This document shows positions 19,387 to 37,577 of a stretch of 64,000 bases of DNA, piece by piece. Under the pieces are notes generated by a model. That model ran no database searches, had not been told where the DNA came from, and saw only the letters and a program-made list of their open reading frames with translations. Position numbers and translations under genes: made by a program. The stretch's first letter is position 1. The number at the start of each line of letters is the position of its first letter. The DNA is taken from positions 62,001-126,000 of the forward strand of contig CALURK010000005.1 in the NCBI GenBank assembly GCA_944323165.1, in the 5' to 3' direction. The stretch is from Candidatus Gastranaerophilales bacterium (lineage in GTDB: Bacteria; Cyanobacteriota; Vampirovibrionia; Gastranaerophilales; Gastranaerophilaceae).

Positions 19387-19701
19387 ATGAAAAAAATCTT
19401 AACATTAATGGCTATTGTTGCACTAACAGGGGCAATTGCTGCAAATGCTGCAGAATCAAGACTAGAGAATTTTGTAAACAAACAATTATCTCCAATTACC
19501 CAGAAGGAGAAAGAATTGAATGCTAAGATGGAAGCTCAACAAAAGGCAAACGAAGCAAAACAAGCAGAATTAAAGAAACAACAAGAAGAGCGTCAGGCTG
19601 CCAGAGAAAAACAAAAACAAGAAGCTCAAGCAAGACGCCAGGCAACAAAGGATGCTATCCAAGCTGAAAAAGATTACTGGAATTCACTAATTAAAAAATA
19701 A
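19387..19701 (+). CDS. Small secreted, charged helical protein (paralogue A)
   Basis: I do not recognise the family. The 104 residues begin with a Sec signal peptide (MKKILTLMAIVALTGAIAA, likely cut at ANA-AES). The mature part has ESRLENFVNKQLSPITQKEK, then about 45 residues almost wholly Lys, Gln, Glu, Ala and Arg (KKQQEERQAAREKQKQEAQ), and ends in KDYWNSLIKK. The middle should be one long solvent-exposed helix. It is paralogous to the next gene: both share the ESR..(F/W)VN...SPIT(Q/K)KE block, a charged helix and an aromatic C-terminal FW/YW.SL motif. A strong GAAAGGAG ribosome binding site and 11-base spacing to the next gene suggest a high-output two-gene unit. Confidence 0.82.
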   Translation: MKKILTLMAIVALTGAIAANAAESRLENFVNKQLSPITQKEKELNAKMEAQQKANEAKQAELKKQQEERQAAREKQKQEAQARRQATKDAIQAEKDYWNSLIKK

Positions 19702-19712
19702 AGGAAGGTAAT

Positions 19713-20084
19713 ATGAAAAAGATTCTTACTACTTTAATTGCCATAGTGTTAACTTCTTCTATAGCGGTTAATGCAGCAGAGTCAAGGGTTCAACATTGGG
19801 TAAATCATTGGATGTCGCCTATTACCAAAAAGGAAAGAGCGTACAATGATAAGCAAGCAGAAGCTCATAAAGCTCATAAAGCCAGACAGGCTAAATTAAA
19901 GAAACAGCAAAAAGAGCGTCAAAAAGCTTACGAAAAAAAGAAAAAAGACAGAGAAAAAGCTTATAAAAAGCAGCAAAGAGAAAGGGAAAAAGCTTTAAGG
20001 GAAGCTCAAAAACGAAGAGATGACAGAAATAAAGCTATTCGTGATGAGGCGAATTTCTGGAAATCACTTTTTCATAGAAAATAA
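19713..20084 (+). CDS. Small secreted, charged helical protein (paralogue B)
   Basis: A 123-residue paralogue of the preceding gene, with signal peptide (MKKILTTLIAIVLTSSIA, cut near VNA-AES), ESRVQHWVNHWMSPITKKER, a very basic helix (KKQQKERQKAYEKKKKDREK and similar) and the end ANFWKSLFHRK. It is more basic than paralogue A (Lys/Arg rich against Lys/Gln/Glu), so the pair could associate electrostatically with each other or with the envelope (inference). AAGGAAGG precedes the ATG. A strong terminator follows. Family unknown to me. Confidence 0.82.
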   Translation: MKKILTTLIAIVLTSSIAVNAAESRVQHWVNHWMSPITKKERAYNDKQAEAHKAHKARQAKLKKQQKERQKAYEKKKKDREKAYKKQQREREKALREAQKRRDDRNKAIRDEANFWKSLFHRK

Positions 20085-22029: not shown

Positions 22030-22489
22030 TATCAGCGATTATTCCTGTAAGAAGTGCGTATCTGTATTTTTTTATGCCAACAGATCCAAAATAAACAGCA
22101 AGCACATAAAAAGTTGTTTCCGAGCTACCTACCATTATGGCTGCGAGCTTAGCAATATAAGAATCTGCTCCAGACTGTTTAACGATATCAGAAAATAGCC
22201 CAAGAGCAGCTGAGCCTGATAGTGGTCTTGTGAATATAAGCGGTATAATATCTGGCGGAATAATATTGTTAGCGAAAGCTTTAACGTATTCAAGTACTCC
22301 GGATGCTCTAAACATTGAAACTGCTACAATAATAGCTACCAGGTACGGAATTATTGAAATTGAAACTTTAAATCCGTCTTTTGCTCCTTCTATGAATTCT
22401 TCATAAACAGGAACCTTTTTTATTAATCCGAAAGAAAGGATAAATAATATCATAAGAGGGAGTATATAAAGAGAAATTTTTTCAATCAT
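21965..22489 (-). CDS. spmB: Spore maturation protein B-like membrane protein
   Basis: A 174-residue integral membrane protein of the SpmB / nucleoside-recognition (Gate) domain family, with several hydrophobic helices and the conserved FTRPLSGSAALGLF and VGSSETTFYVLAVYFGSVG segments. In Bacillus the SpmA/SpmB pair affects spore core dehydration, but the pair is widespread in bacteria that do not sporulate, where the substrate is unknown. It overlaps spmA by eight bases and its 3' end overlaps the convergent zinc-ribbon gene by 65 bases. Confidence 0.92.
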   Translation of the reverse strand: MIEKISLYILPLMILFILSFGLIKKVPVYEEFIEGAKDGFKVSISIIPYLVAIIVAVSMFRASGVLEYVKAFANNIIPPDIIPLIFTRPLSGSAALGLFSDIVKQSGADSYIAKLAAIMVGSSETTFYVLAVYFGSVGIKKYRYALLTGIIADITNIVLAIWVARLFFLANSVL

Positions 22490-23066
22490 ACTTCCTCCAG
22501 ACCTTTTGTAAAATTAAAGCTACAATAATTGCAGTCACAAAAGAAAGTGATGTAACAATAAGTGTAGGTAAGATAATTTCAGTAGGATTCTTAGCTCCAA
22601 ATCCCACCAATATAGCGATAACTGTAGCCGGAATGATTTGAAATCCAGCAGTATTCATCCCTAAGAACATACACATTGCATCTGTTGCTTTTGATTTATC
22701 AGGATTATCTTCTTGTAGTTCTTTCATAACTTTTAAGCCTATGGGAGTTGCTGCATTTGTAAGTCCAAGGGCATTTGCGGTTATACTCATAGTTATATCA
22801 CCTATTGCAGGGCTGTCTTTTTTTACATCCTTGAAAAGAAATTTTGTTATAGGAAAAAGGAATTTAGAGATTATTTGCACTAAACCGCTTTTTTCTGCAA
22901 TTCTCATAATTCCAAGCCAGAAAGCCATAATTCCAATAAGAGATAGCGAAATTTCTACCGCAGTATTGCATGCTCCAAGCATGGAACTTACAACTTTATC
23001 AAGTGTGTGATTAAAAATCCCCGCAACTATTGATACTGAAATAAGAATAAAAAATATATAATTCAT
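22482..23066 (-). CDS. spmA: Spore maturation protein A-like membrane protein
   Basis: The 194-residue partner of SpmB, also with the nucleoside-recognition Gate fold. Conserved parts include FWLGIMRIAEKSGLVQ, the MSITANALGLTNAATPIGLKVMKEL core (in parts) and MFLGMNTAGFQIIPAT. Multi-pass membrane protein. The ATG has no ribosome binding site; TAATAT lies six bases upstream, so this may be another leaderless start, less convincing than purB. Divergent from the giant coiled-coil gene. Confidence 0.92.
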   Translation of the reverse strand: MNYIFFILISVSIVAGIFNHTLDKVVSSMLGACNTAVEISLSLIGIMAFWLGIMRIAEKSGLVQIISKFLFPITKFLFKDVKKDSPAIGDITMSITANALGLTNAATPIGLKVMKELQEDNPDKSKATDAMCMFLGMNTAGFQIIPATVIAILVGFGAKNPTEIILPTLIVTSLSFVTAIIVALILQKVWRKYD

Positions 23067-23094: not shown

Positions 23095-23123
23095 TTGTCA
23101 CTATTTTTATATTAGTATATAAT
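23095..23123 (+). promoter_or_regulatory. Sigma-70-type promoter of the giant coiled-coil gene
   Basis: TTGTCA (23095-23100), a 17-base spacer and a perfect TATAAT (23118-23123). Expected start near 23130, giving a 30-base leader before the ATG at 23160. One of the clearest promoters in the window. Confidence 0.75.
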
Positions 23124-23159: not shown

Positions 23160-26100
23160 ATGGCAGACATAAATAATTTTACGGAGATTACAGAGAATTT
23201 TGATACAATCAAAACCTTGCTAAATTCAATAAGGGCACAGGGTATATTGAATACTTCTGACGTCGATAAACTTCTGGCAGGTATTAATTCCAAATTAGAA
23301 AAGCTTAATACAGAAGAGGACATTGATTTAATAAAAATCTTTCTGACAGAACTTAAGCAAAATCTTGATGAAAGACACAGTGTATTGTTATCTAAATTTG
23401 GTGCTATTGAGTCTTTATTCTCAAATCTTCTTAAAAATAGTTCTGAAGCTTTAAAATCAAGTGAAGTAAAGGAACTGTTTGATATTGTTGCAACCAATCT
23501 GTCTGTATTTTCAAGGGAAGTTGTTTCGCAAAAAGAAACTCTATCTGACATAACTCTACGTTTAGATGCGATGAGATCTGATGATTCTCAGAAAAAAGAA
23601 ATTGTAAAAAATATTTCATTTTTAAAAAATGATTTAGAGCGTCTTAATAACGGCTTTGATTCAATAGTATTGAGCCTGAACGAGAACTTTAAAACAGTTA
23701 TAAAATCAATTTCAAGTGTTGATCCAACAGAGGTTGTATCTAATTTTAGCAAGGAATTGGAAGATATTACTAATTCTTCTAACACTATATTGTCAGCTAT
23801 TCAAGTTTTAGACAAGAAAAATTTGCAAATAGAAGATGCAATAAAAGGTTTGGCAACACATGAAGATTTAGTAAGTACAAAAAAATGGATAAGTGATTTA
23901 GCTAATCAAGAACAACAGTTAACGCAATCTGTAGATAATTTAGCTGATAAATACTATAAAATAGACAATTTAGCAGAAAAAATTGACGCTTCTGTCGATA
24001 TAATAGCCGGCATGAAGACTATTATTGCTGACAAAGATGAGCAGAGCTCAAAAGCTATTATCGACAGACTAAATCAACTTGAAGATTTTGTTCGGGATGT
24101 AACTTCTAACAAAGAATTTGATGAGTTCAAGAAAACTCTTGAACAAACATTAAATGGAATATACAATGCATCTACCTCTCTACACTCGTCACTGAATTTA
24201 ACAGGAGATGAGATAAAGAAGATTAGCGAAGCAATAAGAACTCTCGATATAAATGTTAATTTCAAGAGTTTAGCGTCTGATTTATCAAAGGCAGAACAAG
24301 GTATAAAAGAGCATGTAAGTGTAGAATCTGATAAAGTAATTCAATTAGTTGATGTAAATGCTACAAGGACTTTAAATGAGTTAACAAATAATGCGGATAG
24401 TTTATCTGACAAGCTTGTTGAAACACAGCGACTTATTACCGGGTTGTGCGAAAAAAGTTTTTCTGATTTAGAAGAAAATATTTCTGGTTTGCGAAATGTT
24501 GTTTCACAGATTGATGAAAATAATGTTTCTGCTAATAATGCCATTTTTTCAAATATTACTGATAGACTGGCTTTGTTTGAAGCCGGTTTAAAATCTTCAT
24601 TAGAAAAGCAAGAAAATTATGTAGCTAATTCTTCTAAGGATCTTTTGGAACAGATTAGCAATATAAAGGATTTGTCAGGTGTTTTAGATTACAAATTAGA
24701 TTCTTCAGTAATAGAAATAAATAATGCAAAGACAGAATTTTCAGGTTTAAAAAAAGCTGTAGAAGAAATTTTAGCTTTAGATTTTGTAAGTAAGGTAAGC
24801 GATTTTAAGGTAGATTTGTATGCTGCCAAACAAGAGCTGACTAATCTTTTTGAAGCAACAACAAATGATTTTTCTGAAAAATTCTCAAATGATTTGTTTA
24901 GTAAATATGAACTTTTGACTAGTAAGCTTGATAGTGTAGAAACTGATATAAAAAAGGTTCAAGCAGAGTCTTTAAATAGTTTAAAAGTTTCGTTAGACAA
25001 TATATCATCTTCTCTTGTAGATATATTATCTTATGTAAGTTCAGTAAAGGAAATCAGTACAGAGGGTATTGAAGCTAAGTTAGATGAAATTTCAAAAAAT
25101 GTAAGTGATAATAGTTTAAACTATATAGAAAGTGTAAAAGATGCTGTAGATATTGTAAGAATTCAGGTAGAGAATAATATAAAAAGTTTACAGGAAGACA
25201 CTTATAAGCAGGTTAAAAGTTTAAATTCTTCAATTGAAACTTCAAGTGGTATAATTCGTGAAGATATAAAAAAATCTTATAACAAATTACTTGAAGTGCA
25301 GAAGTGCTTTGAAGACGTTCAAGGAGTGTTACAGCAGAATAATTCATCTTTTACTGAGAATATAGAAGGTATTGTAGAAAAGGCTTCAAAAATTAAAGAT
25401 GAGTTTGATAATAAGCTGATATCTCTAAAAAATTCAATAATAGAGAAAGTTGCTGATTTCCAGAAAGATTTTACATGCGAAAATGCAGATAAAATAAGTG
25501 AAATTAAATTTATTTCAGAAAATTTACATACAAAACAACTTGAAAACTCTCAAGAGGTAAAAGAAGAATTACGCGGAGAAATCTTTAAGTTAGCCGGAAC
25601 ATTAAAATTAAATATTGAAGAGTTGGCAGAACAGTTGGCTGGTAATTCTTCAAAACTTGATACTGTAAATCATGATATTGTCAATCTGATAAATAACGAT
25701 TTTAAATCACAGGTGGAAACTTTTACAGGTTCAGTGTCAGAAACAATGAACGATTTCAAGGAAGGATTGGGAGAAAAATTAGATGATAATTATTCAAAAT
25801 TATCTGATTTAGAATCTTCAGTGAATAGTTTATCAACGACTACAACAACATCCTTAACTTCAACTTTGGCAAAGGTTTTAGACAATTTTGTTTCTTTAAA
25901 GGCTTTGCTTGGCAATTTGAATGAAAAAACATCTGAAGATTTTCAAAAAGCTGTTGATACAATAATAAATGAATTTGCAAATTTAAAAGATAAGATAGAA
26001 AGTTTTGACAGTACAATTGACGAGGATTTAACAAGGCAGCTGTCCATAATAGAAAATAATTTTAACGATTTGAGCAGCAATTTAGGAAACTTTTTTGCTC

Positions 26101-29100
26101 AATCAAATCATTTAATAGGCAGTACAATAAGCAATGGCTTGTCAAATGTTTCCGGAACGTTGAGAGAAACCGTTCTGGAAAGTCTTGAACAATATAAAAA
26201 TAAGATAAATTCAACATTTGATGATATATCAGAAAAAAATGACCTACAAATTAATTTGATGGAAGAAAAAGCAAAGGAATTGAATGATATACTTCAAAAG
26301 ACTTTGGATGAACAAAATTCAATATCTTCAAATAAATTGTCTGAGTTGACTCAAAATTTAAAGAATATATTGGAAGAAAATATTGAACTAACTTCGGCAG
26401 ATTATAGTTCTTTAAAGGAAAAATTTAATGAATTATTGAAAAATGTAGAAAATCAAAATAAAGTAACTGCGGAGTTTTTAAAAGAGGCAACAGAATCTAT
26501 AAATAGCGATTTAAAAGCTCAAGAGAACTCATTATCTGTAAGAATAGAAGCAGCTCAAAATGTATTAAAGGAAACTCAAGATGAGTATGGAAAAGTAATT
26601 ACATCACAGGTTTCATCAGTATTAAATGAAATTAATTCCATAAGCAGAGGTTTGGATGAAGCTGCTCAAGATATAAATAATAATGTTTCTAAAGAAATTT
26701 TAGACACATTTAATGAGTTATATGAGAAAATGAACTCTTTATTTGAGCAAACAACATCGAATTTGTCATCACTGAGCAACAGTAACAACGCCCAACAATT
26801 AGGGGAATTAAATGCAAAAACACTGGAAATAAAGGATTTATTTACAAGTTTAAATGAACGCTTGGATAAAGATGAAATTTCGAGAATGAATGTATTTCAA
26901 TCTCAATTAAAAGAATTAAGTAATTCTTTCAATGCATTAATAGAGGATACTAAGAATGTAACTAAAAAAGAAGTATCATCTATTTCGCAAATGTTGATAC
27001 AAAGCAATAAGGAAATAATGTCGGATGTAGAGCAGTCTATTGAAGATAAAGTAAATTCAATTCTGTCTACAAGTGCTGATATTGCTGCAGGAGAGCTACA
27101 AACAATTGAATCTTATGCAAATAAAATAATAGATCAGGTTAAAGCTTCTCAGGAAGCTCTGAATTTAAGCAAGGATTTCATAACTGATTTTGTAAAGAAT
27201 GAGTTGTCTATAATTTCGGATAACATAGAAAAAGAATCAGATATTCTGGTTAAAGATTTATTAGAACAAATGAGTTTAATGAAGGATTTCCAGCGCGATG
27301 AGATTACGCGTTTAACAGCAGAAATCGAAGGTGCTGTGGAAGACAGTATTTACAATAATATAAACGAGTTAAAATCTTATGTTGACATAAAAACTGACAC
27401 ATCAATATTAAATAGTAAATTAGATGAAATAAATTTATCTCTAAACAAAACGACAGAGGATATATTAACTGCCTCCAATAATATGTTAACTGCGAGTGTA
27501 TTTGATAATGCAATCGCAGATTTGAGGTCTGCAAATAATGTTTTAATTACGTCGTTAGCAGATAGTTTAAATTCTCAAATACAAGCGTTTGTTAAAAATA
27601 CTTTACTGAAAGATATAGATGATAAATTTAATCTATTTGATAAGAAATTTGTAGATACAGTAGTTGATAAATATGAAGAAATAAAAGTTATATCATCCAA
27701 GTATAATAACTCTTTTGACGTAATTCAAGCTTCCGTAAAAGATTTACTTGCAAAATTTACCGATTCAAAACAAGAAATATATAAGACTTTGTTATCCGTA
27801 GTAGATGATATAAGCAGTGATGTAGATGAATTAAGTTCAAGTTTTGCGGATTTGAAGTCACAAATATTAAATAAGTCTTTTGATGAAGCTTTTCAAAACT
27901 CAATAACTGCAGAAATTACAGAAATACAGTCATTAATAAAGGAACAATTCAGCTATGTAGAAGATATAAGTTCTCTATGTTGCAGTAATTTGCCTGAGTT
28001 AACCGAGATGAATGCTTTAGTGAAGTATAATATAATACAATCTTTAAAGGATTTGAATACGAGATTAGACGGTCAGGATTCAAATATAGAGAAAGAGCTT
28101 GATTCATTAAAAACGGATGTAATAACTCAGTTCTTAAATATATTTAATCAGATATCTTTTGTCGCCGAACAGGAAGAAATATTAGATTTTATACAGGAAA
28201 AACATTCAGAGTTAATAACTATATTAAGTCATATTGTCACTCGAAATGAAGAGATAGATACAATAAAAGATAGTGTTTCCAGTGTTGAAAATAAGGTAGA
28301 TACCGTAAAGAACGACATAGATTCTATCAATGAAAAAATAACATCTATAATATCATCGAATGGAAATGTTGATTATGTATATAGTTTGCAGGATTTAGAG
28401 TCAGATATTGCAAATCTTCGATTGACTTTGAATGATATAAAAGAAAATAATTCATCAAAAGAGTTAGAAGCGCTTATAGCGTCTACCAATAACATATATG
28501 AATTGGTGGAATCTTTGAAGAAAGAGTTCCCAAACTTTAATACAGAGGAATTTAAAAAAGATTTTGATGCTTTAAGTGAGGATATAGTAAGCATAAGTAC
28601 CAGAACTAATAAACTAATATTAGCGTCTGATGAGTCTTACAAAACATTACAGGAAAATCTTCAAGATTTTAAATTAGTAATAAATGATTTGGACGAAAGA
28701 ACTCGTAACTTTGCTCATGAAGTTGGTATTGAAAGGATAGATAATAAGCTAGGCGTTATCAATACAATGATTCAAAATGGAGCAAAAACAAATCAAGTAT
28801 TTAACCAGGTATTTGAATATTTAGCAGAATGGGTAGATAATGCCGGCAGCCAAATCTCAGCAATATCAGATAAGGTTGAAACATTAGATGATATAGGTCA
28901 AATAAAAGTAATGCTGGAAGATTTGAAAGCTGAGGCTGAAGATAATTCAGACAGTGCAGAATTAATAGATGCATTGAGTAATGTATTTGAGAAGCAGGCT
29001 AAACGAATAAGTTCATTAGAAGCAAAGCTTGACAGGGTTATTGTAGAAACTACAATAAATAATAAGAATAATAAGCTGGATTTAACACCAATAGAAGAAA

Positions 29101-29312
29101 CCTTAAATAGATTTTTGGTAGCAATAGACGATAAAATGTTGTCTCAGCAGTCCAAAATAGATTCTCTGGAGTCCAAGCTTGCGGAAGTAATGACAATGAT
29201 TAATCCAAAAGATACCGCGCAATTAACCAAAAAAGTCGGTGGTATGGATAGGCAAATAGCCAAGTTAAATAAAAGTATTGAAAAAATAGCATCACATGTT
29301 GTTGAAAAATAG
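23160..29312 (+). CDS. Giant coiled-coil protein of unknown function (2050 residues)
   Basis: I do not recognise this protein. It fills almost 10 percent of the window. From about residue 20 to the end it is dominated by heptad-like helical sequence rich in Ser, Asn, Asp, Glu, Lys and Leu, with almost no Pro, Gly, Trp or Cys (one CC pair in SSLCCSNLP near residue 1605). There is no signal peptide, membrane helix or recognisable catalytic motif. The style resembles chemoreceptor signalling helices or SMC-like rods, but no ATPase ends are present. The C-terminus (MDRQIAKLNKSIEKIASHVV) is again a coiled coil. A strong promoter and an AGTAGG-type weak ribosome binding site precede it. The GlcD-type oxidase starts inside its last 17 bases, so they are co-transcribed. 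A cytoskeletal or scaffold role is inference. Confidence 0.88.
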   Translation: MADINNFTEITENFDTIKTLLNSIRAQGILNTSDVDKLLAGINSKLEKLNTEEDIDLIKIFLTELKQNLDERHSVLLSKFGAIESLFSNLLKNSSEALKSSEVKELFDIVATNLSVFSREVVSQKETLSDITLRLDAMRSDDSQKKEIVKNISFLKNDLERLNNGFDSIVLSLNENFKTVIKSISSVDPTEVVSNFSKELEDITNSSNTILSAIQVLDKKNLQIEDAIKGLATHEDLVSTKKWISDLANQEQQLTQSVDNLADKYYKIDNLAEKIDASVDIIAGMKTIIADKDEQSSKAIIDRLNQLEDFVRDVTSNKEFDEFKKTLEQTLNGIYNASTSLHSSLNLTGDEIKKISEAIRTLDINVNFKSLASDLSKAEQGIKEHVSVESDKVIQLVDVNATRTLNELTNNADSLSDKLVETQRLITGLCEKSFSDLEENISGLRNVVSQIDENNVSANNAIFSNITDRLALFEAGLKSSLEKQENYVANSSKDLLEQISNIKDLSGVLDYKLDSSVIEINNAKTEFSGLKKAVEEILALDFVSKVSDFKVDLYAAKQELTNLFEATTNDFSEKFSNDLFSKYELLTSKLDSVETDIKKVQAESLNSLKVSLDNISSSLVDILSYVSSVKEISTEGIEAKLDEISKNVSDNSLNYIESVKDAVDIVRIQVENNIKSLQEDTYKQVKSLNSSIETSSGIIREDIKKSYNKLLEVQKCFEDVQGVLQQNNSSFTENIEGIVEKASKIKDEFDNKLISLKNSIIEKVADFQKDFTCENADKISEIKFISENLHTKQLENSQEVKEELRGEIFKLAGTLKLNIEELAEQLAGNSSKLDTVNHDIVNLINNDFKSQVETFTGSVSETMNDFKEGLGEKLDDNYSKLSDLESSVNSLSTTTTTSLTSTLAKVLDNFVSLKALLGNLNEKTSEDFQKAVDTIINEFANLKDKIESFDSTIDEDLTRQLSIIENNFNDLSSNLGNFFAQSNHLIGSTISNGLSNVSGTLRETVLESLEQYKNKINSTFDDISEKNDLQINLMEEKAKELNDILQKTLDEQNSISSNKLSELTQNLKNILEENIELTSADYSSLKEKFNELLKNVENQNKVTAEFLKEATESINSDLKAQENSLSVRIEAAQNVLKETQDEYGKVITSQVSSVLNEINSISRGLDEAAQDINNNVSKEILDTFNELYEKMNSLFEQTTSNLSSLSNSNNAQQLGELNAKTLEIKDLFTSLNERLDKDEISRMNVFQSQLKELSNSFNALIEDTKNVTKKEVSSISQMLIQSNKEIMSDVEQSIEDKVNSILSTSADIAAGELQTIESYANKIIDQVKASQEALNLSKDFITDFVKNELSIISDNIEKESDILVKDLLEQMSLMKDFQRDEITRLTAEIEGAVEDSIYNNINELKSYVDIKTDTSILNSKLDEINLSLNKTTEDILTASNNMLTASVFDNAIADLRSANNVLITSLADSLNSQIQAFVKNTLLKDIDDKFNLFDKKFVDTVVDKYEEIKVISSKYNNSFDVIQASVKDLLAKFTDSKQEIYKTLLSVVDDISSDVDELSSSFADLKSQILNKSFDEAFQNSITAEITEIQSLIKEQFSYVEDISSLCCSNLPELTEMNALVKYNIIQSLKDLNTRLDGQDSNIEKELDSLKTDVITQFLNIFNQISFVAEQEEILDFIQEKHSELITILSHIVTRNEEIDTIKDSVSSVENKVDTVKNDIDSINEKITSIISSNGNVDYVYSLQDLESDIANLRLTLNDIKENNSSKELEALIASTNNIYELVESLKKEFPNFNTEEFKKDFDALSEDIVSISTRTNKLILASDESYKTLQENLQDFKLVINDLDERTRNFAHEVGIERIDNKLGVINTMIQNGAKTNQVFNQVFEYLAEWVDNAGSQISAISDKVETLDDIGQIKVMLEDLKAEAEDNSDSAELIDALSNVFEKQAKRISSLEAKLDRVIVETTINNKNNKLDLTPIEETLNRFLVAIDDKMLSQQSKIDSLESKLAEVMTMINPKDTAQLTKKVGGMDRQIAKLNKSIEKIASHVVEK

Positions 29313-30681
29313 TATAGAAGAAATAAAAGATGTCATAAAAAAAGGCAATGTACTGACAGATGATTCTGAGTTATATTGTTATTCAGAAGATTCTCTGAAT
29401 AATCGTTTAGAATCAAGTAAGGCAGATGTTGTAGTATTTGTAGAAACAATAGAAGAAGTTCGGCAAATTTTAAGGTATGCGAATAAAAACAAAATCCCTG
29501 TTGTATCTCGTGGTGCGGGTACTAATATGGTTGGTGCGTGCACCTGTCCTAGAGGTGGTATTGTTCTTAACTTCTCTAGAATGAATAAGATAATAGATTT
29601 TAATCCTATAAATATGACAATGACAGTCCAGCCCGGAGTTGTAGTGGGTGATATAAAAAAACTTGCAGAAAGTAAAGGTTTGTATTACCCTCCAGATCCT
29701 TCTAATTTTAAGGTTTCTACAATCGGCGGTAGCATAGCTCAATCTTCTGGAGGGGCATCTGCATTTAAGTATGGAACTACGAAGGATTATATATTAAGTT
29801 TAACAGTAGTCCTGGCAGATGGTACAATAATGAAATTGGGTTCTGGTACAATAAAGGATGCTGTAGGTTATCATTTAAATCAGCTAATGGTAGGAAGTGA
29901 AGGAACTTTAGCAATAGTAGTTGAGGCAGAATTAAAGTTAATCCCAAAGCCGGAGTCTAAGCGTTCTATTGTTGGCTATTTTAATACAGTAAAAGCTGCA
30001 GTTGAGGGAGTTAATAATATACTAACTAATCAAGTTTTTCCTGTAACGATTGATTTTATGGATAGAAACTCTATAAATACAGTAGAACAGTTTTATCCTT
30101 GTGGGTTGCATATAGAAAAAGAGGCTCTTTTACTCGTAGATATTGATGGTTTTGAATCATCAATGAATTATCAAGAAAGTATTGTGGTGGAAGCCTTAAA
30201 TAAAGCTGGCGCTACTAATGTTGTAATAGCCAAAACGGAAGAAGAAATTGAAAAAATATGGACGGCAAGACGTTCGAGTTTTGCAGCAACGGCAAAACTT
30301 GCTCCGGATGTGTTATCAGATGATATAATTGTTCCAAGAACAAGTATCGTAAATATGGTAGAAGGTTGTAAAGAAATTTGTGATAAATATAATTTAAAAG
30401 CTTGTATTGTTGGACATTTGGGGGATGGTAATTTACATCCTCAAATAGCACTAAATTTAGATAATGAGGAAGAGTTTAAACGGTATCATATTGCAAAATC
30501 GGAAATATATAATATGGCTATTAAACTGGGTGGCACAATTTCCGCTGAACATGGAGTTGGGGTGGAAAAAATGCCATATATTGGGAATATAATTAATAGT
30601 TCTGCAATAGAATATATGAAAGAAATAAAACGGTTATTTGATCCAAATAATATATTAAATCCGGGAAAGATATTTGAATAA
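29296..30681 (+). CDS. FAD-binding oxidase of the GlcD / D-lactate dehydrogenase family
   Basis: A 461-residue flavoenzyme of the VAO family that oxidises 2-hydroxy acids such as glycolate or D-lactate. The FAD-binding PCMH domain has VVSRGAGTNMVGACTCPRGG, MTVQPGVVVGDI, PPDPSNFKVSTIGG and AGGY-like VGYHLNQLMVGSEGTLAI; the C-terminal domain has VGHLGDGNLHPQ and ISAEHGVGVEKM, which bind the cofactor and substrate. No GlcE or iron-sulfur GlcF partner lies nearby, so the electron acceptor is unknown. The ATG lies within the last codons of the giant coiled-coil gene. Confidence 0.93.
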   Translation: MLLKNSIEEIKDVIKKGNVLTDDSELYCYSEDSLNNRLESSKADVVVFVETIEEVRQILRYANKNKIPVVSRGAGTNMVGACTCPRGGIVLNFSRMNKIIDFNPINMTMTVQPGVVVGDIKKLAESKGLYYPPDPSNFKVSTIGGSIAQSSGGASAFKYGTTKDYILSLTVVLADGTIMKLGSGTIKDAVGYHLNQLMVGSEGTLAIVVEAELKLIPKPESKRSIVGYFNTVKAAVEGVNNILTNQVFPVTIDFMDRNSINTVEQFYPCGLHIEKEALLLVDIDGFESSMNYQESIVVEALNKAGATNVVIAKTEEEIEKIWTARRSSFAATAKLAPDVLSDDIIVPRTSIVNMVEGCKEICDKYNLKACIVGHLGDGNLHPQIALNLDNEEEFKRYHIAKSEIYNMAIKLGGTISAEHGVGVEKMPYIGNIINSSAIEYMKEIKRLFDPNNILNPGKIFE

Positions 30682-35684: not shown

Positions 35685-37577
35685 GTGGGCTTTTTTGATA
35701 GTATTAAAAATTTTAAACATAAGATTGATCAAGTAGAATCCACTGTATATACAGGGAAACAGTCATTACTGGAGGTTTATGAAATTAATGCAAAGCTAGA
35801 AGCCGAAATTGCTCTAAGAACACGAGAATTAGACAGAGCTAACAGGCAAATGCTTACGTTACAGCATATTTGGGATATGATGAATTCATCTAAACCTCTT
35901 TCTAGTGTATTAAATGCCATAGTAAATAGTTTGCAGGGCGAATTGGGTTATTTATACAGTTTTATAGTGAAAGAAAAGGCTGATAATAATGGTATATATT
36001 TGCAAGTTGTAGCTTCTTCAAGAGATGATTTAGATACAAAATTTTGGGAAAATTTTAAGTGTAATGTTTCAGATTTTCGTATGAATTTTCCAGATATTCC
36101 GGAATTAAGAAATGCTGTTAAAAATAATCAGATATATCAGTCTGTAAATTTAGAAGATTTGGTTTGTGGATTTGTTCCTCAATTTGATAAAAAAAGAGTA
36201 GAAGAGTTCTTGCGAAACGCAAAAATGCGATCATACATCTTGGTACCATTGAAGTCTAAGCAAACTCATTTTGGCTCTTTATTAGTATTTTCATCAAGGG
36301 AACGAGTAAGTGAAAGTGAATTAAATTTTTTAAGTTTATTTGCGAAACAAATAGAACTTGCTATAACTATCGCAGACTTATTTGAAGCTGTAAAAGAGCA
36401 AGCAATTACAGATGGAATGACTGGGTTGTATAATAGACGTTATTTTGAAGAATTTATAAAAAAAGAAGTTATAAGGTCAAATCGTCAAAACCAAAAATTT
36501 ACAGTAATAGGCTTGGATTTAGACCATTTAAAGCAAATAAATGATACTTATGGGCACAATTACGGTGATATTGCTATAAAAGCTATAGCAGAGGTTTTGA
36601 AAAACAATGCTCGTTCTATAGATGTTGCAGCCAGAATGGGGGGCGAAGAGTTTAATATATTACTTCCGGGTGTAGATTCAGCCGGTGGCTGTATAGCAGC
36701 GGAACGTATTAGAAAAGCTATAGAATCTGTAGAATTAGATAAAATTGGGCATATAACAGCAAGTTTAGGTGTTGCAACTTATTTAGAGCATACTGACGAT
36801 ATTGAAGAATTGTTGGAAATTACTGATAGAGCCATGTATGAGTCAAAAAGAAATGGACGAAATCGCGTAACAATTGCACGACCTGCTTATGAAACTTCTT
36901 GGCAGGAAATTGCTGTAAATACTTTCCTAGATATTTTGGAGAAGCACAGAATTCCTGTAGATGAAACTACATCTAAACTATTAACAAAAAAATTAGAAGG
37001 AATGAATATAAATAATACAAAGCTTTATCAAGTTGCGGATAGTCTTATTTCTACGTATAATCCAGAGCATATAGAAGGAAGCGTTAAGAAAAAAGTTGAA
37101 TTAGCAACTCTTTTGGCAAAACGTTTTGAATTATCTAAAGATGCGGCTGATAAGCTAAAAATAGCAATTTTGCTATATGATATAGGAAATACGATGCTTC
37201 CTAGGGAAATTTTAAGGAAAAAGGAACCTTTAACAGAAGAAGATAAGGCTTCAATAAAGCAGCATCCAATAATCGCAGCCAGAGAAATTTTAAGGCCAAT
37301 ATCAAATATAGTAGATGTTATACCAATAATTGAAAAACATCACGAAAATTGGAACGGAACCGGATATCCTGCAAATTTGGCAGGCGATGATATTCCAATT
37401 GAATCTCAGATTATATTAATAATAGATTCGTACTTTGCTTTATTAGAGAAACGTCCATATAGAGAGGCAATGTCAAAGTCTGATGCAATTGCGTTAATAG
37501 AACAGGATATAAATAAAAAATGGAGTGAAAAGCTTGCTCAGGAATTTATTGCAATAGTGAAGAATGATTTAGATTAG
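35685..37577 (+). CDS. GAF-GGDEF-HD-GYP hybrid signalling protein
   Basis: A 630-residue protein combining cyclic-di-GMP synthesis and hydrolysis folds. Order: coiled coil (about 10-70), GAF-like domain (about 75-230), GGDEF domain (about 240-400) with the intact active motif RMGGEEF (near residue 318) and LDLDHLKQINDTYGHNYGD, and an HD-GYP domain (about 430-620). In the latter the catalytic HD is changed to YD (LLYDIGNTM, near residue 497) while HHENWNGTGYPANL keeps GYP. This suggests an active diguanylate cyclase with a sensory or inactive phosphodiesterase domain (inference). It starts with GTG, after AGAGGAAT. Confidence 0.92.
   Translation: MGFFDSIKNFKHKIDQVESTVYTGKQSLLEVYEINAKLEAEIALRTRELDRANRQMLTLQHIWDMMNSSKPLSSVLNAIVNSLQGELGYLYSFIVKEKADNNGIYLQVVASSRDDLDTKFWENFKCNVSDFRMNFPDIPELRNAVKNNQIYQSVNLEDLVCGFVPQFDKKRVEEFLRNAKMRSYILVPLKSKQTHFGSLLVFSSRERVSESELNFLSLFAKQIELAITIADLFEAVKEQAITDGMTGLYNRRYFEEFIKKEVIRSNRQNQKFTVIGLDLDHLKQINDTYGHNYGDIAIKAIAEVLKNNARSIDVAARMGGEEFNILLPGVDSAGGCIAAERIRKAIESVELDKIGHITASLGVATYLEHTDDIEELLEITDRAMYESKRNGRNRVTIARPAYETSWQEIAVNTFLDILEKHRIPVDETTSKLLTKKLEGMNINNTKLYQVADSLISTYNPEHIEGSVKKKVELATLLAKRFELSKDAADKLKIAILLYDIGNTMLPREILRKKEPLTEEDKASIKQHPIIAAREILRPISNIVDVIPIIEKHHENWNGTGYPANLAGDDIPIESQIILIIDSYFALLEKRPYREAMSKSDAIALIEQDINKKWSEKLAQEFIAIVKNDLD

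Follow-up and report, generated by a model that had tools for sequence, protein, structure and literature searches.

A very large, predicted helical protein of Gastranaerophilales whose conserved ends flank a length-variable rod

Introduction

A single gene fills 9.6% of the 64-kb stretch of DNA analysed here (the window), which comes from a Candidatus Gastranaerophilales bacterium. The question raised by this locus is what kind of protein the gene encodes and what such a protein could do in the cell. A preliminary description, made from the letters of the window, had seen in it a cytoplasmic coiled-coil protein with a strong promoter, possibly a cytoskeletal rod or a scaffold. This very large protein is kept in almost all these gut bacteria, and no curated full-length family was found for it. 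A literature search combining the order with 'coiled-coil' returned no relevant paper, and nothing useful was found in the literature on apolipoprotein-like repeats and cell morphology. The protein family is undescribed and lineage-specific; the general kind, long helical rod proteins, is already known.

Results

The gene, its promoter and its neighbours

The gene lies on the + strand at 23160..29312 and is an intact open reading frame of 2050 aa, with orthologues in the genus and the family and omega values well below 1. The size given in the preliminary description (about 10% of the window) was therefore correct. A putative sigma-70-type promoter is located upstream on the same strand (23095..23123), with TTGTCA at 23095-23100 and, after a 17-nt spacer, TATAAT at 23118-23123. 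This promoter, which had also been recognized earlier, was matched upstream of the gene in 38 of 38 sequences of the genus, and in the genus alignment the conservation around it forms a block extending past both hexamers. On the divergent side lie spmA/spmB-type genes (Pfam Gate), in agreement with the assignment proposed before; among the compared loci, the one for the spmA-like Gate protein (22482..23066, − strand) was found in this place only in the window's genus. On the other side, the gene overlaps by 17 nt (29296..29312, + strand) with a gene for a glcD-type FAD-linked oxidase (29296..30681, + strand), a probable operon partner in the window's genus. Matches to PF02913 and PF01565 confirmed the nature of the oxidase. 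Its ATG start codon is placed within the sequence coding for the -HVVEK* end of the giant protein.

Two other places in the window were noted. At 19387-20084, two adjoining small ORFs (104 and 123 aa) have similar signal-peptide-like starts and K/Q/E-rich bodies, and they look like tandem duplicates. Downstream, at 35685-37577, a protein reads by eye as GGDEF plus HD-GYP. In genera g43 and g52 (L221, L222, L228), a similar protein is encoded at a distance of about 1 kb from the giant gene, in a neighbourhood that is otherwise different.

Distribution and selection

The initial search of relatives gave a match to the giant protein in 62 of 97, and within the window's genus the only genome of this set lacking a match is 69% complete. 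The window's family is represented by 188 genomes, and a profile of the C-terminal region (A1) detected the protein in 180 of them. Absence from close relatives, which the preliminary description had named as an outcome speaking against it, was thus not observed. A more diverse profile (A3), from which L144 was left out because of stop codons in its joined match coordinates, detected the protein in 105 of 107 genomes of the family. A1 was the first and less sensitive profile; genome G234, missed by A1, was recovered by A3. Elsewhere in the order, sister families encode shorter versions: those of f6 have about 750-820 aa, and a single f7 genome has one of about 1450 aa. Outside the order, no genome in a sample across the whole phylum matched at E 1e-4; four class-level f8 genomes with weak matches (E 2e-8 to 6e-4) were not counted as relatives. 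As judged by these profiles, the family is confined to Gastranaerophilales and near-universal in the window's own family.

In close pairs of orthologues, omega was about 0.03-0.10 for the N and C parts of the protein and 0.08-0.24 for its central rod, values limited by dS being near saturation in several pairs and uncomputable in some. They indicate strong purifying selection on the ends and weaker selection on the rod.

Architecture of the protein

The 38 full-length sequences from the genus range from 1844 to 2550 aa, and they share one plan. The N-terminal conserved region (aa 1-150; 23160..23609, + strand) shows about 90% column conservation and is homologous in other genera of the family. 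The whole N part, up to about aa 790, is nearly free of indels, with few sequences deviating. It is followed by the central rod (aa 790-1352; 25527..27215, + strand), the length of which varies between 353 and 1075 aa, an approximately three-fold range within one genus, while the flanks keep an almost fixed length. The C part, from about aa 1352 to 2050, is again almost without length change except in a few sequences. It includes the C-terminal conserved region (aa 1640-2050; 28077..29309, + strand), which carries the family signature SISTRTNKLIL and FEYLAEWVDNA and the profile of which finds relatives across the order. Other genera of the family have recognizable N and C regions around differing rods, and the whole protein reaches up to 2867 aa there. 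The extreme C-terminus, -HVVEK or -NVVEK, is strongly conserved and coincides with the start of glcD; the overlapping gene may be part of the cause of this conservation.

Hydrophobic periodicity and charge pattern

For the whole protein, the hydrophobic power was 24.8 at a period of 3.65 and 0.1 at 3.5, and the power at 3.5 never exceeded 3.9 in any 250-aa stretch. When the rod was averaged over the 38 orthologues, the peak was found at 3.650 with a power of 31.5, compared with 0.8 at 3.5; unlike the rod, the N and C ends have peaks near 3.4. The strongest autocorrelation lags include 11, 22, 29, 33, 44, 18, 62, 51 and 40. Such lags, of the form 11n or 11n+7, together with the period of 3.65 point to a hendecad pattern, that is, an 11-residue hydrophobic periodicity over a long stretch. 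The dominant 3.5 periodicity of a canonical heptad coiled coil of the intermediate-filament type is missing, and the heptad-like sequence that had been reported through nearly the full length of the protein was not confirmed, as the centre peaks at 3.65. The identical script placed the SMC arms of the same genus at 3.52, tropomyosin at 3.525 and apoA-I at 3.665.

In the rod, K/R residues are enriched along either side of the hydrophobic face, and D/E residues on the face opposite to it. This class A-like pattern is less pronounced than that of apoA-I and more distinct than that of SMC arms. The window protein is strongly acidic, with 365 D+E and 219 K+R residues and a net charge of −146.

Domain searches and structure prediction

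No enzyme domain was found for the giant protein in Pfam, NCBIfam or PDB sequences, and the search against PDB sequences gave nothing at E 0.1. No signal peptide is evident. Transmembrane segments were not detected either, since Kyte-Doolittle means over 19 aa do not exceed 1.04 for the window protein and 1.59 for the orthologues. In these respects, the preliminary description of a protein without signal peptide, membrane helix or enzyme motif was right. Its statement that there is no known domain has to be qualified by PF01442 (Apolipoprotein A1/A4/E), which matches the window protein at E 2.8e-17 with 63.5 bits, below the curated cut-off of 90 bits, and exceeds the cut-off in three relatives (L138, 92.4; L144, 113.2; L145, 151.1 bits). 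This match is a shared helical repeat pattern and not evidence of common descent with apolipoproteins. A search for a fused domain in other genera returned only helical-type or low-significance matches.

AlphaFold2 predicted only helices for residues 1-300 and 1640-2050, with mean pLDDT of 63.1 and 67.5 and pTM of 0.38 and 0.20, respectively. A globular enzyme fold, which had been named in advance as contrary evidence, was not predicted for either end in these low-confidence models. Foldseek found no PDB structure matching either end model at an E-value of 0.001 or lower, as expected for helical models of low confidence. Hendecad coiled coils are reported, in the account given in PMC11676326, to be particularly difficult AlphaFold targets. 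The low confidence therefore does not count against a coiled coil, nor can it serve as proof of one.

The hydrophobic stripe of a long helical rod needs to be buried against a second copy of the protein, a different helix or the surface of a lipid layer. The last possibility makes up the main alternative: a long amphipathic helix coating a membrane or the surface of a lipid or storage granule, like apolipoproteins, perilipins or phasins. We regard it as rather unlikely, although the PF01442 matches, the rod period near that of apoA-I and far from the ~3.52 of SMC arms and tropomyosin, and the charge distribution intermediate between apoA-I and SMC arms all agree with it. The same period occurs in hendecad coiled coils, the PF01442 matches may reflect repeat pattern and composition only, and the charges are less segregated than in apoA-I. 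Moreover, so acidic a protein is unfavourable for binding to an anionic membrane. The class A-like pattern keeps the lipid-surface alternative alive, and the net charge speaks against it.

Association with glcD

Where glcD follows on the same strand, the overlap is exactly 17 nt in 84 of 90 loci and 14 nt in 5; the loci are not independent, as many come from the window's own genus and some genomes were sampled twice. The remaining locus is L102, from a metagenome-assembled genome, in which the giant ORF is truncated to 1520 aa (L102:2875-7437), through either an assembly error or a true break. Such regularity, seen in many genera while the upstream neighbour changes, would suit a protein that serves the GlcD-type oxidase as its dedicated structural partner or tether. 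Genome G260 (g40), which is 99% complete and has neither gene, is in line with this; the other g40 genomes searched have the giant gene. The overlap may, however, be mere translational coupling. In g50, glcD follows the giant gene with no overlap. The giant gene is located elsewhere, beside other genes, in g43, g49, g52, g54 and the sister families f6 and f7; those of their genomes in which glcD was looked for do contain it. Several genomes also contain glcD without the giant gene adjoining. The search for an ancestral neighbour revealed no single partner conserved across the order: the giant gene adjoins glcD in most derived genera, and the other neighbours, named by reading, include an upstream gene for a protein of about 461 aa (g43 and g52) and a uracil-DNA-glycosylase-like gene (g49, g54 and f7). 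Since the giant gene lies elsewhere in basal genera and sister families, its arrangement with glcD is probably derived, and GlcD is not an obligate partner. A function tied to GlcD is then not likely to be the original one, and we consider this explanation improbable.

Evolution of rod length

The longest relative in the genus, L038, contains adjoining copies of a 59-aa unit whose DNA sequences show 99% and 94% identity, so that its rod has recently grown by tandem duplication. In other genera, a 58-aa period was found in L145 and L147, and a 29-aa period in several further relatives. The rods of sister species differ considerably, by 292 residues between L038 and L039 (81% identity) and by 91 residues between L054 and L056 (86% identity). 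Indels partly keep the helical phase: at a period of 3.64, R is 0.46 with a Rayleigh p of about 0.003, a modest result because several periods were tried. Read from the sequences, rod length grows and shrinks through in-frame tandem duplication. The protein clearly exemplifies, in nature, how tandem duplication can rewrite the length of a rod between conserved ends, and this combination looks less like an enzyme than like a linker or scaffold of structural type.

The same data bear on the proposal in the preliminary description of a scaffold that sets a cell-level dimension, in other words a molecular ruler. The conserved ends and the defined rod length of each species would be expected of a ruler, but a rod that is so unstable between close sister species fits poorly with measuring a conserved dimension, which makes this proposal very improbable. 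Kinship with SMC proteins or phage tape-measure proteins is the least credible explanation, to be given hardly any weight, for the weak matches fall in generic helical stretches (they are to Rad50 and archaeal SMC-related models and, at a best E of 1.4e-6, to PHROGs of tape-measure type), the giant protein has no ATPase head in a genome with a separate SMC, and no phage genes adjoin it in the loci examined, where the window and its relatives have housekeeping neighbours.

Discussion

Proposed role

On balance, we find it somewhat more probable than not that the giant protein is a cytoplasmic, acidic, all-helical and elongated hendecad rod of an order-specific family, which links or scaffolds cell components through binding ends. 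In this respect, the earlier suggestion of a cytoskeletal rod or scaffold is supported as to a long, all-helical, cytoplasmic protein of structural type, and fails as to heptads in the central rod. The conserved N- and C-terminal helical regions would serve as binding or assembly ends, joined by the rod. As the hydrophobic stripe of the rod follows hendecad repeats, chains would pair or bundle through this stripe, and the resulting rod, with each of the 2050 residues adding about 0.15 nm, could reach a length of up to about 300 nm when fully extended. It would act as an intracellular linker or scaffold whose length is altered by tandem duplication. The sequences directly show the gene, its conservation, the architecture, the periodicity, the variation in length with its origin, and the selection on the ends; we infer that the chains self-associate, that they are extended inside the cell and that they link or scaffold. 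The last reading agrees best with the data because the ends are the conserved parts and the rod tolerates changes of length. Counting against the hendecad rod are the low AlphaFold2 confidence, the class A-like charges that would also suit a surface-binding helix, and the lack of an order-wide partner.

A broader claim would be that Gastranaerophilales possess, near-universally, a new cytoplasmic filament or spacer system, built of a hendecad rod with binding ends whose length evolves fast via tandem duplication. This is possible, and we hold it tentatively, leaning against it. If a filament or linker is the true role, the protein would represent a structural element peculiar to this lineage, which has been little studied and is known mainly through genome sequences.

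Comparison with known systems

The coiled-coil arms of SMC and Rad50 resemble the giant protein in their long helices and weak profile matches; it differs from them in that no ATPase head was found and in its period of 3.65 versus 3.52. With the apolipoprotein repeat of PF01442 it shares the 11/22-residue amphipathic helical periodicity, the basic flanks and the acidic opposite face, whereas the window protein scores below the cut-off, is devoid of a signal peptide, far longer and acidic. The likeness is one of pattern. The bacterial coiled-coil cytoskeletal proteins, as far as they are portrayed in the accounts of Helicobacter pylori Ccrp (PMC2776988) and crescentin (PMC10873595), are likewise helical, cytoplasmic and possibly filament-forming. 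In contrast to them, the giant protein, for which no sequence relation to them was found, has a non-heptad centre and about 2000 aa. The hendecad coiled-coil families (Martinez-Goikoetxea and Lupas 2023, as cited in PMC11676326) have in common with it, within what that account covers, the long, probably helical sequence with 11-residue periodicity, the amplified repeats and the poor AlphaFold models. Compared with these families as described there, the giant protein is distinguished by conserved ends that flank a rod of variable length.
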